Of a DNA stretch of 64,000 bases, positions 33,527-39,163 are shown piece by piece. The DNA comes from Natronomonas pharaonis DSM 2160 (GTDB taxonomy: Archaea; Halobacteriota; Halobacteria; Halobacteriales; Haloarculaceae), in assembly GCF_000026045.1 (NCBI RefSeq), contig NC_007426.1, forward strand, positions 1 to 64,000, given 5' to 3'. The position numbers and the translations under genes are program-made. The notes under the pieces are model-generated. The model searched no databases. It saw nothing but the letters and a program-made list of their open reading frames with translations, and was not told where the DNA came from. Position 1 is the stretch's first letter, and each line of letters begins with the position of its first letter.

Positions 33527-33814
33527 ATGGCAAGCCGCGTGGAGTTCAACGCGACCGTCTCGACGATGTTCGGCCTCTTCCTGTTCGTCGTCGCTGTCGG
33601 CAACGTCGTCGCCGGGAGCACGCCGTTTGCGATTATGTTCGGCGCGCTCGGATTCGTCTTTGTCTCCCTGTCGAGCTACATCAGAAGCAACCCGGACGCG
33701 TTCGAGGACGGCGACGAGGAGGTCCCCGACCGCTGGATTCGAATCGTACGCGGTGGGGGTGGGCTCGTCCTGCTCGCAGCGGCGGCGTTCGTCGTCGCGC
33801 TTGCGCTCGGTTAG
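33527..33814 (+). CDS. Small membrane protein of unknown function
   Basis: The 95-residue protein starts MASRVEFNATVSTMFG. It has three hydrophobic helices (about 10-30, 33-50 and 72-94), with an acidic loop DAFEDGDEEVPDRW between the second and third. No motif is recognised. The stop overlaps that of convergent hisH (shared TTAG). It follows lrp by 42 nt on the same strand and may be cotranscribed. Confidence 0.6.
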   Translation: MASRVEFNATVSTMFGLFLFVVAVGNVVAGSTPFAIMFGALGFVFVSLSSYIRSNPDAFEDGDEEVPDRWIRIVRGGGGLVLLAAAAFVVALALG

Positions 33815-34458
33815 CGCTCTAGGCAGTAGTCAACGAAGTTCTGGAGAATCTGTAGCCCCGTCTCGCCGGACTTCTCGGGGTGGAACTGCGTGCCGAAGAC
33901 GTTACCCGCCTCGTTGGCGACGATGGCGGGAAACTCGACGCTGTAGTCGGTCGTTGCGACGACAGCGGCGTCGTCATCCGGCGCAGCGTAGTAGGAGTGG
34001 ACGAAGTAGGCGTACTCGCCGTCGATGCCCTCGACAATCGGATGGTCACGGGCCACGTTGAGTTCGTTCCAACCCATGTGCGGGACCTTCTGTCCCTCGT
34101 CGAAGCGGACGTTACGCCCGGGGACGAGGTCGAGTCCGCGAACATCGCCCTGTCCGACGGTCTCGGCTTCTTCGCTTGAGGTAAGCAGCATCTGCATCCC
34201 GAGACAGATGCCGAAGAGCGGCTGGCCGTCAGCAGCGGCCGCAACCAGCGCCTCCCGGAACGGGCCGGCGTTTTCCATCCCCTCGCTGAACGCGCCGACG
34301 CCCGGAAGCACGATACCGTCGGCGGCCGAGAAGTCGTCGGGGTCCGCCGAGAGCGTCACCTCGGCACCCGCGCGTTCGAGCCCGCGGGTGACACTCCGGA
34401 GGTTCCCGAGCCCGTAGTCGACGAGAACAACCTCCGCAGTCCGGTCAGTAGTGTCCAT
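33811..34458 (-). CDS. hisH: Imidazole glycerol phosphate synthase subunit HisH
   Basis: The 215-residue class I glutaminase starts MDTTDRTAEVVLVDYGLGN. It supplies ammonia to HisF in histidine biosynthesis. The nucleophile Cys is in GICLGMQML and the His/Glu pair in TQFHPEKSGETG. HisF is not in the window, as is common in haloarchaea where his genes are scattered. It is convergent with the small membrane protein, sharing a 4-nt overlap. Confidence 0.95.
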   Translation of the reverse strand: MDTTDRTAEVVLVDYGLGNLRSVTRGLERAGAEVTLSADPDDFSAADGIVLPGVGAFSEGMENAGPFREALVAAAADGQPLFGICLGMQMLLTSSEEAETVGQGDVRGLDLVPGRNVRFDEGQKVPHMGWNELNVARDHPIVEGIDGEYAYFVHSYYAAPDDDAAVVATTDYSVEFPAIVANEAGNVFGTQFHPEKSGETGLQILQNFVDYCLER

Positions 34459-34550
34459 ACGCCTTCTTGACAGGCCGTGGGCAAAGTGGGTTTCCATCCC
34501 GGCGGTGTTGGCGACGTATGCTACGATGCCGAACGGACCGGCCAGTGCCG

Positions 34551-35135
34551 TCAGAACTCGCCGAGTCGCGACTGGCCGCCGGCGCTGTCGTCAAGAAACC
34601 CGACAGCCGCATCGAGCGCGGCGTCGAACTGCTCTCGCTGGCTTGGGTCATACAGCGTCGCCGCTGGATGGACACAGACGAGGACGCGCCGGGCGGTGCC
34701 GTCAATGCGGGCGTCATAGATAGCACCCGCAGCCTCCGTGACGGCGACAGACCGGTCCAGCAGATGCTCGGCGGGAACTTTTCCGAGAGCGACGACGACA
34801 TCGGGGTCGACAGCCGCGATTTCGGCGTCGAGGTACGGCCGGCAGTTGCTCCGCTCCTCGGCGGTCGGGTCACGGTTGTCCGGCGGCCGGCAGCGGACAC
34901 AGTTTGTGATGCGGATATCCCGCCGCGAGAGGCCGCGGTCCCGAAGCCCCTCGTCAAGGACGTCCCCGGAGCGGCCGACGAACGGCTCGCCCACCTCGTC
35001 TTCCGTCTCGCCGGGGGCTTCGCCGACAAACAGTAGGTCGGCATCGGTCGGACCGACGCCGTTGACGATGCGGCTCCGGGAGGCACACAGCTCCGAGCAG
35101 CGTCGACAGTCGGTCACGTCGACGTCGTCTGTCAT
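34551..35135 (-). CDS. udg: Uracil-DNA glycosylase, family 4 type (iron-sulfur)
   Basis: The 194-residue enzyme excises uracil from DNA. Motif 1 is GEAPGETEDEVGEPFVGRSG. Four cluster-binding Cys fit the N-terminal CRRC pair plus Cys in NCVRCRPP and SNCRPYL. Motif 2 is VHPAATLY, against the more usual HPS. Its ATG overlaps the stop of the DUF99 gene (ATGA), so the two are translationally coupled. This suggests a shared role in repairing deaminated bases. Confidence 0.9.
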   Translation of the reverse strand: MTDDVDVTDCRRCSELCASRSRIVNGVGPTDADLLFVGEAPGETEDEVGEPFVGRSGDVLDEGLRDRGLSRRDIRITNCVRCRPPDNRDPTAEERSNCRPYLDAEIAAVDPDVVVALGKVPAEHLLDRSVAVTEAAGAIYDARIDGTARRVLVCVHPAATLYDPSQREQFDAALDAAVGFLDDSAGGQSRLGEF

Positions 35136-35752
35136 ACCCGACGGTCGTCGCCATCGGTGTTAACCCCGCCGGATTCGGCCGGCAGTCGCCCGCCGCGTCG
35201 GGCGTCGTCGGCGCGTCCTGCCAGTCGCTTTGCGACCCGCAACGGGTCCGGCCGCCGCTCGTGTGTGTAGGCGTCGACCACGCGGTCGGTTTCGTCGGCA
35301 CCGAGGCCGACACTCCGGGCGAAAAGCGGTGGGTCGGCCTGAAGCCGCCGGCGCGGCGGCAGCGACCGGTACGTCGCCAATCGGTCGTCTCGGGCGTCGC
35401 CGTCGAACGCGTCCTCGATGGCCGATTCGAGCCCGTCGCTTGCTTCGAAGGAGACAGCGACGACCGGACGGTCGATACGGTCGGCAAGTACCTGGAGGTC
35501 GACGACGTTATACCACGCCAGCGCGACGCCCGCGAGGAAAACATACTGGACATCGGGGCGGTCAAGCCGCTCCCAGAGGTCAGCGACGGCACCGGTCCCG
35601 TCGGACCCACCGACGGTACAGGTCCCGAAAACGAAGTCGTCTACAGTCCGGTCGGCACGGACGACAGCGCCGGCCAGCGTACTCTCTGTGGTTCCATCGT
35701 CGGTGCCGCGGAACGACTCTGCGATGCCGACGGCCCGACGGCCGGGCTTCAC
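35132..35752 (-). CDS. DUF99 family protein (Endo dU superfamily)
   Basis: The 206-residue protein starts MKPGRRAVGIAESFRG. The conserved AVGIAES(F/D) start, LAGVALAWYNVVDL and PVVAVSFEAS match DUF99 (PF01949, named endonuclease dU, related to endonuclease V). Activity on deoxyuridine or inosine is family-level knowledge and not shown here. The ATG overlaps the stop of the DUF5786 gene, and its own stop overlaps udg's ATG, so the three form an operon. Confidence 0.85.
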   Translation of the reverse strand: MKPGRRAVGIAESFRGTDDGTTESTLAGAVVRADRTVDDFVFGTCTVGGSDGTGAVADLWERLDRPDVQYVFLAGVALAWYNVVDLQVLADRIDRPVVAVSFEASDGLESAIEDAFDGDARDDRLATYRSLPPRRRLQADPPLFARSVGLGADETDRVVDAYTHERRPDPLRVAKRLAGRADDARRGGRLPAESGGVNTDGDDRRV

Positions 35753-35925
35753 TCGCCCTGCAGCCGCTCGTAGGTCTCCAACAGGTCTTCGCTCGAGGCG
35801 TCGTCGTACTCGAATTCGACTTCGCCGTCGTGGGTCGGCAGCGTCGACTGGCCGCCGTCCTCGATGTCGTCAGTATCGAGTTGCTGGTTTTCCTGTTCGG
35901 ATTCGTCGTAGCTTCCGAACCCCAT
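35749..35925 (-). CDS. DUF5786 family small acidic protein
   Basis: This 58-residue protein starts MGFGSYDESEQENQ and ends ETYERLQGE. It is very acidic, rich in Asp, Glu and Gln, and probably disordered apart from a C-terminal helix. The N-terminal MGFGSYDESEQ signature identifies the haloarchaeal DUF5786 family, whose function is unknown. Its TGA shares ATGA with the DUF99 start. A TATA-like ATTTACACT lies about 31 nt upstream, so it probably leads the operon. Confidence 0.82.
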   Translation of the reverse strand: MGFGSYDESEQENQQLDTDDIEDGGQSTLPTHDGEVEFEYDDASSEDLLETYERLQGE

Positions 35926-36121: not shown

Positions 36122-39100
36122 GTGAGCGATGGGGGCGAGCCGACGGCCACCGTCGCGTACGTCGGTCACCAGCCGCCGATGGAATCCGGCGGTGGAATCC
36201 GCATCGAGCGCGTCGGCCGTGGGTCCGTCGACGAGTACGCCCCCTACGCCGACTGCGTGCTCCTCGAAGAACCGGGCGGCGGGCTCGAGGCGCTGGCCCG
36301 GTTACAGGAACGGTCCGTGCCGACAGTGCTGTACGACCGGACCGCTGACCCGACAATCGCCGCCGAGGCGACGCGATACGGAGTCACGGAGTACGTAACA
36401 GACCGGGCGCTCGGGGCGGAGACGCTCGCCGACCGCATCGCCGACGCTGCGGGCATAACCGCACTCGACGCCGACGGCGAGCGCGAAGAGCGGGCGCTCC
36501 AGCAGTTGACGACCGCCGCAGGCGATGCAACGCTGTCGTCGTCCGAAAAGGTGCGACGGATACTGAAAGCCGGTCGGGAACGGCTCGGGGTGTCGTTCGG
36601 CTTCCTCTCGGAAGTCGACGACGGCACATGTACCGTCGTCGCCGCCGACGGCGACCCGGACGGCGTTACGCCAGGAACATCAGCGCCGCTCGAGTCGACG
36701 TTCTGCCGGCAGACGGTTCGTACAAGGGGTGTACGCGCTCTCCGCGACATTGAAAGCGATGTCTGGACGGACGGTATGGCACCGAACTACCGCTCGTTCG
36801 GTTGCTACATCGGCGTCGAGGTACACGTCGGGGACCGCTCCTACGGGACGCTGTGGTTCGCCGACACGGAGGCCCGTGAGCCGTTCACACAAAGTGAGCG
36901 GACGTTCGTGCGGCTCCTCGCGGAGTGGCTCGGCCACGAGGTCGAACGCGACCATCGAACAGTAGAGCTCCAACAAGCCCAAGAACGAACCGAGAACGTC
37001 CTCAAGCGGGTTGGTGACGGATTCTTCGCCGTCGACGACGACTGGGAACTGACATACATCAACCCGCGAGCGGAGGCACTGCTGGACGGCGACGCCGACG
37101 AGTGGCTCGGTAAGTCCCTGTGGTCAGTACTGCCGGAAGAGCTTGTCACAGAGCTTCGGGGACAATACGAGCGGGCGCTGTCGACAGGGGAAGCGACCAC
37201 GTTCGAAGTCCGTCCCGAATCGCTCGGGCTGTGGCTGGAGATGAGCGTCTACCCGGACGACGACGGGCTGACGGTGTATTTCAAGGATATCAGCGGGCGA
37301 AAACGGTACGAACAGTCGGTCGGGGAGCTGCTATCCGCGGGCGAGAAGCTCCATGCCTCCGAATCAGCCGGCGGCATCACCGATATCGCAGCCGAGGCTG
37401 CAACGCAGATTCCGGGCTTCGACCGAAGTATCGTCCGCGTTCCGGATGGGGATGGCCTCGCTATCGACGCTGCCGAAGGCTGTTCCAACCCTGATTGCGG
37501 GACCGTCGCTATCGGCGAGGGGGTGGCGGGACAGGCCTATGAGCGCGGTGCGCTCGTCGACGGGGACAGCTCGTGTCTTCCGGGCGACGAGTCGTTGGCG
37601 GCCCCGCTTGGCAAACACGGCGTCATCGTCGTCGGCTGTGGGTCGGCGACCGGCGAGACCGACCGGCGGCTGCTGTCGCTGCTGGCGTCGAACGTCGAGT
37701 CAGCGCTTGAGCGAACCGACCGCGAACGGCAGCTCCGGCGCTACAAGGCCATCCACGAGACCGTCGAACAGATGGTGTTTGTCGTCAGCGAGGGCACACA
37801 AATAGACCTCGTTACCCAGCCGCTTGCCGACCGATTCGGCTACGACCGCGAGGAACTCGTCGGGTCTGAGCTGACAGCGCTCGCTGACGACGAGACGGTC
37901 GAGCTCGGCTTCGAAGCCTACGAACGGCTCCGGAACGGCGAGGAGGGACCCGTCGTTATCGAAACGACGCTCCCGGCGGCCGACGGCGAGACCGTTCCGG
38001 TCGAGATAGAGTACTCGCTGCTCTCATCGAACAGCGAGTTCGACGGGCTCGTCGGCGTGGTCCGTGACCGGACGGAGCTGGCCCAGACACGGGCCGAACT
38101 CGAAGACGAGCGCGACCGCTTTCAGCACCTGTTCAACCAACTGCCCGATGCCGTCGTCGACACCGAGTTCGTCGAAGGAGAGCCGGTCGTCAGGGACGCA
38201 AACGCCGCTTTCGAGGAGACGTTCGGCGTCGATGCCGAACAGCTTCGCGGCGACCCGCTCGATGAGCACATCGTTCCGCCGGGTCATGAGGAAGGGACCA
38301 AACAGCTCAACGACGACGCGCTTTCGGTCGATCGCCACACCGCCGAGGTCAGACGGGAGACGGCCGACGGCCAGCGAACGTTCCTCTTCCGCGGCGTGGC
38401 CTACGAAGTCGAGTCGACGACCCGCGGGTTCGGCATCTACACGGACATCACCGAACGGCTCGAACAGGAGCGCCGGCTCCGTGTTCTTCACAGAGTACTG
38501 CGACACAACCTCCGCAACGAGATGACCGCCATCGTCGGCTATGCGGATATGTTGCGGGACGAACTTGACGGAGTGGAACACCGCGGCTACGCCGAGCAAA
38601 TATACCGGCAGGCCAACGAGGTTTCGAAGCTCGGCGAGCAGGTAAAGCGCATCCAGCAGGCGCTGGATGTCGAGCGGCGGCGGGTACCGGTCGACCCCGA
38701 ACGGCTCGTCGACGACATCGCCGAGTGGTACCGCGACGAGTATCCCACAGCGTCGATATCGGTTGCTGCCGACTCGACGGTGCCGGTCGTCGCCGACGAA
38801 CTCCTGAAGACGGCCGTCGACAACCTCGTCGAAAACGCCGTCGAGCATCATCCGGGCGAACCGACCGTCGATGTCGAGCTGGAGGCAGTCGGCGACGAGT
38901 GGTTCGACATCACCGTCCGGGACGACGGCCCCGGTATCCCCGAACGCGAGCAGGCGGTCATCAGCGGCGAACGGGAGATTACCCAGCTCGACCACAGTAT
39001 GGGGCTCGGGCTGTGGGTCGCCCGCTGGATTGTCGACGGCATCGGCGGCGAGTTCGTCTTCGGTGACTGCGAGGACGGGACGGAGGTGACGCTGCGGCTA

Positions 39101-39163
39101 CAGCAGGCGACGGTGGAGACGGACGTGCGGGCCGAGCCGACAGCCGACGAGCCGCCAACCTGA
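36122..39163 (+). CDS. Large multi-sensor histidine kinase (pseudo-receiver, GAF, PAS)
   Basis: The 1013-residue kinase uses a GTG start. Residues 1-110 resemble a receiver domain in which the phospho-acceptor Asp appears replaced (CVLLEEPGGG). Then come GAF (about 140-290), PAS (295-395), GAF (400-540), PAS (545-655) and PAS (665-780). The HisKA H-box has the acceptor His795 in RVLRHNLRNEM. HATPase motifs are DNLVENAVEHH, DDGPGIPE and MGLGLWVA. No membrane helix is present, so it is cytosolic. Neither signal nor partner regulator is known. Confidence 0.9.
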   Translation: MSDGGEPTATVAYVGHQPPMESGGGIRIERVGRGSVDEYAPYADCVLLEEPGGGLEALARLQERSVPTVLYDRTADPTIAAEATRYGVTEYVTDRALGAETLADRIADAAGITALDADGEREERALQQLTTAAGDATLSSSEKVRRILKAGRERLGVSFGFLSEVDDGTCTVVAADGDPDGVTPGTSAPLESTFCRQTVRTRGVRALRDIESDVWTDGMAPNYRSFGCYIGVEVHVGDRSYGTLWFADTEAREPFTQSERTFVRLLAEWLGHEVERDHRTVELQQAQERTENVLKRVGDGFFAVDDDWELTYINPRAEALLDGDADEWLGKSLWSVLPEELVTELRGQYERALSTGEATTFEVRPESLGLWLEMSVYPDDDGLTVYFKDISGRKRYEQSVGELLSAGEKLHASESAGGITDIAAEAATQIPGFDRSIVRVPDGDGLAIDAAEGCSNPDCGTVAIGEGVAGQAYERGALVDGDSSCLPGDESLAAPLGKHGVIVVGCGSATGETDRRLLSLLASNVESALERTDRERQLRRYKAIHETVEQMVFVVSEGTQIDLVTQPLADRFGYDREELVGSELTALADDETVELGFEAYERLRNGEEGPVVIETTLPAADGETVPVEIEYSLLSSNSEFDGLVGVVRDRTELAQTRAELEDERDRFQHLFNQLPDAVVDTEFVEGEPVVRDANAAFEETFGVDAEQLRGDPLDEHIVPPGHEEGTKQLNDDALSVDRHTAEVRRETADGQRTFLFRGVAYEVESTTRGFGIYTDITERLEQERRLRVLHRVLRHNLRNEMTAIVGYADMLRDELDGVEHRGYAEQIYRQANEVSKLGEQVKRIQQALDVERRRVPVDPERLVDDIAEWYRDEYPTASISVAADSTVPVVADELLKTAVDNLVENAVEHHPGEPTVDVELEAVGDEWFDITVRDDGPGIPEREQAVISGEREITQLDHSMGLGLWVARWIVDGIGGEFVFGDCEDGTEVTLRLQQATVETDVRAEPTADEPPT

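Follow-up and report, generated by a model that had tools for sequence, protein, structure and literature searches.

What does a protein of 58 residues do when it is encoded directly ahead of a reported dU endonuclease and a family-4 UDG? The question is raised by a locus of Natronomonas pharaonis DSM 2160 that lies in the window, by which we mean the whole stretch of DNA analysed, 64,000 nucleotides long (contig NC_007426.1, positions 1 to 64,000).

Gene order around DUF99

The locus consists of three real genes on the minus strand: a DUF5786 gene belonging to the group called A below (35749..35925; 58 aa), a DUF99/Endo_dU gene with a GTG start (35132..35752; 206 aa) and a family-4 UDG gene (34551..35135; 194 aa). 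Families were named with Pfam and NCBIfam profiles at their curated cut-offs; NCBIfam has no DUF5786 model. The DUF5786 protein scores 60 bits against PF19099 (cut-off 26.9), spanning profile positions 1-55 of 55. The DUF99 protein scores 168.5 bits against PF01949 (cut-off 32.7) and 245.1 bits against the NCBIfam model NF052283 EndoDuHalo (cut-off 200), and the glycosylase scores 174.4 bits against TIGR00758 UDG_fam4 (cut-off 125.3) and 169.9 against the Arch_udg equivalog NF040953, under its cut-off of 250. The sequence at the two junctions shows that neighbouring genes overlap by four nucleotides on the minus strand, the DUF5786 stop and DUF99 start in GTGA (35749..35752) and the DUF99 stop and UDG start in ATGA (35132..35135). 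The first-pass annotation had described a minus-strand trio joined by two ATGA overlaps; the trio and its DUF99/UDG junction stand, and the other junction has to be corrected to GTGA, since DUF99 starts with GTG. The minus-strand run opens with DUF5786. Its upstream neighbour, identified by profile match, is a divergent PAS/GAF sensor kinase gene (36122-39163), and the gene that follows the trio downstream, hisH (33811..34497, minus strand; TIGR01855, 213.4 bits), was judged to lie outside the unit.

To see how far this arrangement extends, the surroundings of DUF99 were taken from all 116 Halobacteria genomes searched, which represent 46 genera. DUF5786, DUF99 and family-4 UDG are each present in 116 of 116, and in 115 the gene immediately preceding DUF99, in the same orientation, encodes DUF5786. 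With the beginning of the DUF99 match as the reference point, and not its start codon, the gap between the two is zero or less in 51 of the 116 loci, 1-20 nt in 38, 21-100 nt in 20 and 101-300 nt in 6, with DUF5786 absent in one, so that DUF5786 lies within 100 nt of the DUF99 match in 109 loci and more than 20 nt away in 26. When start codons are used, the spacing is -4 in 32 of 111 loci. Of the 116 loci, 82 have a UDG gene downstream of DUF99, in the same orientation, at no more than 300 nt; the distance is 301-1000 nt in 13 and greater in 8. UDG is absent from the available stretch in the other 13, five of which end less than 1.5 kb from DUF99, one of them at 534 nt. A DUF99-UDG gap of -4 occurs once among the 87 loci measurable from start codons, in the window itself, and the second overlap is therefore a local peculiarity. 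Among 80 named loci, a set that overlaps partly with the 116-genome sample and counts one species twice (L187, L188), DUF5786 lies upstream of DUF99 in all 80 and UDG is present in 69. The order DUF5786-DUF99-UDG is far beyond chance, and the comparison of 115 with 82 loci out of 116 (the latter at 300 nt or less) makes DUF5786-DUF99 the constant pair, tighter than the published DUF99-UDG pair. A conservation survey of the trio had been set beforehand as a test, and its outcome was divided: the trio is spread over 46 genera of Halobacteria, and nothing similar appeared outside them, where DUF5786 was found in 0 of 235 genomes of the phylum and UDG near DUF99 in 0 of 40 loci.

Several loci depart from the common pattern. 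One genome (G021, locus L092) is the only one without DUF5786 beside DUF99; its DUF99 and UDG genes are still adjacent, and this genome has two DUF5786 matches, both weak (best E 8.3e-11). Another (G014, locus L085), alone among the 116, has just one DUF5786 match, the DUF99-linked one. In L146 (G098) DUF99 is split over two frames by a frameshift or an assembly error, and both pieces match PF01949. In genus g3 (L048, L055, L058, L062, L065, L067, L074, L075) DUF99 and UDG are separated by about 670-790 nt, and seven loci have a called RidA-like (PF01042) gene in this interval, with L048 as the representative. Neighbours were called with a rough gene finder that relies on acid content, and its numbers are therefore minima. 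A divergent metallo-beta-lactamase-fold gene upstream of DUF5786 is the most frequent gene beyond the three, with 62 of 113 loci (for example L131); the window has its sensor kinase in that place. On the downstream side a hisH-like gene appears in 28 loci, and in 22 of 98 it is the first gene after the trio.

Paralogs of DUF5786 and constraint on its sequence

Halobacteria genomes carry one to four copies of DUF5786, mostly three, and none was found in the 235 other genomes of the phylum. The extracted copies form three groups: A, beside DUF99; B (MGFGSYDESEQ...VNVHEND); and C (MSMGAYDEDEHERRE). In a phylogeny of 127 copies (99 A, 15 B, 13 C), built from few alignment columns and with many forks unresolved, the three groups separate: their labels need two changes, the smallest possible number. 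Around group B no neighbour family is common to more than 2 of 16 loci by the rough gene finder, and this group can serve as a control, being a branch of the family in the same genomes that lacks a fixed partner. Group C differs: a direct search found a divergent DUF5784 (PF19096) gene on the opposite strand in 10 of 13 group C loci (L020, L030, L148, L152, L154, L156, L157, L160, L161, L163; L148 is the window's own genome), in 0 of 16 group B loci and in 0 of 116 group A loci. This neighbour scores 569.7 bits against the DUF5784 profile, and its residues 188-292 resemble the Mrr restriction-endonuclease domain (Mrr_cat) below threshold (E 0.051, 14.1 bits against a cut-off of 21). Should that match hold, two of the three DUF5786 groups, A and C, may adjoin nuclease-like proteins, which we regard as a lead and not a result. 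A search of DUF5784 against solved structures gave no useful match (best E 0.29), and a literature search on it gave no helpful paper.

These paralogs bear on the possibility that DUF5786 and DUF99 are functionally unconnected and stand side by side merely because one haloarchaeal ancestor had them so. All members were seen in one class and no independent assembly of DUF5786-DUF99 was seen outside it, and the retention of DUF5784 beside group C shows that other neighbourhoods of the family are also kept. Nonetheless, other neighbours of the unit changed often while the DUF5786-DUF99 pair did not, and the group B paralogs of the same genomes have no fixed neighbour. We consider descent alone very unlikely.

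The DUF5786 protein is itself conserved. In an alignment of 50 sequences the N-terminus of group A, MGFGSYDE, is near-invariant and the acidic linker is variable. Median pairwise dN/dS in six genera ranges from 0.00 to 0.18 for DUF5786, 0.07 to 0.24 for UDG and 0.14 to 0.33 for DUF99, values that come from non-independent pairs and include one genus (g3) in which the median dN of DUF5786 is 0 and another (g25) in which dS is high (1.7). The order is the same in all six genera, with DUF5786 the most constrained of the three and DUF99 the least. DUF5786 is therefore a protein under strong selection and no mere leader. This finding weighs on the proposal that it acts in cis only, the translation of this small first cistron making the DUF99 start accessible and its protein having no part in repair. 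The 51 loci without a gap and the 32 with a spacing of -4 speak for this; set against them are the low dN/dS and near-invariant N-terminus, the 26 loci with gaps of more than 20 nt, and the fact that unlinked DUF5786 paralogs retain the same sequence features. An exclusively cis-acting role thus seems improbable.

The AlphaFold2 model of DUF5786 has a pLDDT of 68.2 and a pTM of 0.25, and only the C-terminal helix at residues 45-57 is reasonably sure; the protein is modelled as otherwise disordered and may fold upon a partner. Acidic residues make up one third of it, which alone says little because haloarchaeal proteins are generally acidic. A sequence search against solved structures found no match for DUF5786 (best E 0.55), and a literature search on the term DUF5786 found no paper. 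Viral candidates were rejected: PHROGs gave no match for DUF5786 or DUF99 that would indicate a virus origin or a viral Ugi-like inhibitor, though such a relative may still exist elsewhere, and in a scan of viral contigs none of 26 pattern matches was confirmed as a relative. The first-pass annotation saw in the locus a functional hint for DUF5786, and we agree, with the qualification that the evidence binds DUF5786 to DUF99 more than to UDG.

Fold, motif and types of DUF99

The AF2 model of the window's DUF99 has a pLDDT of 92.7. It superimposes on A. fulgidus DUF99 (2qh9) with Z 25.6 and an rmsd of 1.7 over 172 residues, and on EndoV chains with Z up to 15.8 (human ENDOV, 4nsp). The predicted structure confirms an RNase H-like fold of EndoV type, and with it the kinship to Endo V that had been claimed for the family. 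Sequence profiles were less telling: at E 0.001 the protein matches only PF01949 and not PF04493 (Endonuclease V), and a profile-profile alignment of DUF99 with haloarchaeal EndoV (13 of 14 EndoV loci, L270 being absent) produced a 26-column C-terminal match with probability 1.4. Because that alignment could not place the whole DEDD tetrad, only the positions of D10 and H166 are discussed here, by motif. A separate EndoV gene is present in all 39 Halobacteria searched, the window's genome included, and the idea that DUF99 substitutes for a missing EndoV is thereby rejected. In H. volcanii an EndoV homologue and Udg3 have consecutive locus tags (HVO_0443/HVO_0444; PMC7776575), a second possible endonuclease-UDG neighbourhood; Udg2 of that species is HVO_2792 (PMC7776575).

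Mapped by motif only, A11, E12 and K175 of the window's protein stand at the positions of D10, D11 and H166 in A. fulgidus. The D10 position is alanine in all 115 readable haloarchaeal sequences by the same mapping, and among the 116 Halobacteria the H166 position is R in 89, K in 8, A in 11, S in 6, G in 1 and Q in 1, and never His. About one in eight of the haloarchaeal proteins (15 of 115) lack both the acid adjoining the first site and R/K at the second; in genus g11 all seven compared copies lack both sites, and the median dN/dS of DUF99 is 0.33, still purifying selection. Since the D10 and H166 residues have been replaced, the evidence from A. fulgidus mutants does not simply carry over to haloarchaea, and this natural loss raises the question whether haloarchaeal DUF99 cuts by the mechanism that those mutants address, or at all.

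The motif also divides the family more widely. DUF99 was found in 284 of 295 genomes of the phylum (276 over the cut-off). The DD type found in A. fulgidus accounts for 22 of 40 non-haloarchaeal loci, with His at the second site where readable; of the other 18, 17 have AE with R, K, G or Q and one has SE with S. A tree of 57 DUF99 sequences splits DD from the rest with an SH-aLRT of 100, so that the two motif types are separate clades. A cluster of RpoL, Csl4 and a METTL5-like methyltransferase lies beside DUF99 in 9 of the 22 DD loci (L173, L178, L179, L182, L186, L283, L285, L290, L293), in none of the 18 others and in none of the 116 haloarchaea; Dph2 is also in the cluster at seven of these nine, and in L178 DUF99 directly follows RpoL. 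DD-type DUF99 is thus at times linked to an RNA exosome/RNA polymerase cluster. None of the 40 non-haloarchaeal loci showed a UDG near DUF99. In 5 of the 18 non-DD loci, against 0 of the 22 DD loci, the stretch contains an HhH-GPD glycosylase gene in the orientation of DUF99, an association that is weak because the genes are non-adjacent in L180. We infer that the two types represent a functional split, one RNA-linked and the other DNA-repair-linked.

E. coli BL21 is ung-plus, and the haloarchaeal cytoplasm is multi-molar in salt. Both facts matter for the biochemistry reported by Li et al. (2024; PMC11585767), in which DUF99 proteins of five lineages, one of them Halobacterium sp. DL1, nicked DNA 3' of dU and none cut dI. 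In that report the proteins were purified from BL21 in a single HisTrap step, the activity persisted up to 50 mM EDTA and was lost after 65 C, that of the A. fulgidus protein included, and the products were heated at 95 C in formamide; the main text does not contain the term 'UGI' or a Ugi control (PMC11585767). It is conceivable, though we think it rather unlikely, that in haloarchaea DUF99 descends from an RNase H-like enzyme but reads uracil or some other base instead of acting as a nuclease, that part of the reported cleavage is due to host Ung, and that DUF5786-A tunes a binder. The purification and assay conditions would fit Ung plus strand scission, and the activity was inhibited above 200 mM NaCl (PMC11585767), although the cells that make the haloarchaeal proteins contain far more salt. 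A reader would also agree with the uniform alanine and missing histidine, with the 15 proteins that lack the neighbouring acid and R/K, and with the median dN/dS of DUF99, which exceeds that of the other two genes in all six genera. Other results from the same paper argue for a nuclease: the proteins of all five lineages cut dU and none dI, AP is among the substrates reported uncut by the A. fulgidus and Halobacterium proteins when other modifications were tried, and a D10A-H166A double mutant of A. fulgidus, presumably purified alike, lost most activity while the D10A single mutant was active (PMC11585767). For the second motif position the authors allow H, R or K, and they do not claim D10 and H166 as strictly defining (PMC11585767).

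The same work reports many haloarchaea in which the Endo_dU gene adjoins a UDG gene, and a raised UDG transcript under 0.5 mM bisulfite after deletion of Endo_dU in H. volcanii (PMC11585767). These reports mean that the core of the first-pass annotation, apart from DUF5786 and inosine, was already in print: its joint gene unit holds, the Endo_dU-UDG link and repair role are published, and inosine, which it had put forward for substrate tests, finds no support as a substrate, cleavage being reported for dU and not dI (PMC11585767). The new part is the association with DUF5786.

A proposed role for DUF5786 and known systems

We propose, with about even confidence, that DUF5786-A serves haloarchaeal Endo_dU as a dedicated accessory protein and that the genes make up an operon for uracil-DNA surveillance. 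The proposal starts from the established gene order, its near-universality in Halobacteria, the coding constraint on DUF5786 and the EndoV-like fold of DUF99. The fixed core of the operon would be DUF5786-A and DUF99, with family-4 UDG usually attached. If the trio is carried on one transcript, DUF5786-A would be produced just ahead of DUF99 and in step with it; the disordered protein would then bind DUF99 through its C-terminal helix and its MGFGSYDE end, and might set the activity of DUF99, its stability at high salt or its access to uracil lesions. The outcome would be that direct nicking and glycosylase repair are kept from acting on the same site without control. Three observations speak against an accessory role: DUF99 is common in the phylum (284 of 295 genomes) where DUF5786 is missing, it works in vitro without DUF5786 (PMC11585767), and L092 retains DUF99-UDG without it. 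Nor need the basic function of the DUF5786 family concern uracil, because no neighbour is constant beside group B and it is DUF5784 that stands beside group C. With DUF5786 in 116 of 116 Halobacteria and linked to a reported dU endonuclease in 115, its function is directly testable in H. volcanii.

A broader synthesis can be drawn, which is unlikely to hold as a whole. Haloarchaeal DUF99 would have been rebuilt as a sensor of uracil lesions without the ancestral active-site pair, placed under a disordered acidic DUF5786-A that checks DUF99, and perhaps UDG too, at high salt, like a home-grown regulator of Ugi type. DUF5786 proteins would be partners of nuclease-like proteins (DUF99 for group A, DUF5784 for group C), and the two DUF99 types would differ in their work, the DD-H type sometimes belonging to the RNA exosome/RNA polymerase cluster, the A-x-R type, in haloarchaea, adjoining a uracil glycosylase.

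Compared with known systems, the glycosylase of the window is a typical family-4 member. It has the GEAPG and HP motifs and cysteines C10, C13, C82 and C98, which we take to be those of the Fe-S cluster; all align with T. maritima TM0511 (1vk2), which has the cysteines and the GEAPG-type and HP motifs in common with it and shows no notable difference. The published Endo_dU-UDG pair consists of the same two genes in the same order and lineage, the UDG lying 24 bp (H. volcanii) or 27 bp (H. salinarum NRC-1) downstream, whereas the genes of the window overlap by 4 nt; DUF5786 is not named in the text of that paper, though a small upstream gene could be drawn in its Fig. 8A (PMC11585767). Endonuclease V (PF04493) has the RNase H-like fold in common with DUF99, which does not match its profile. 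A. fulgidus DUF99 (2qh9, AF_1433) has the same fold as the window's protein and differs in its motif, DD...H in the numbering of PMC11585767, where haloarchaeal DUF99 mostly carries A-x...R/K.
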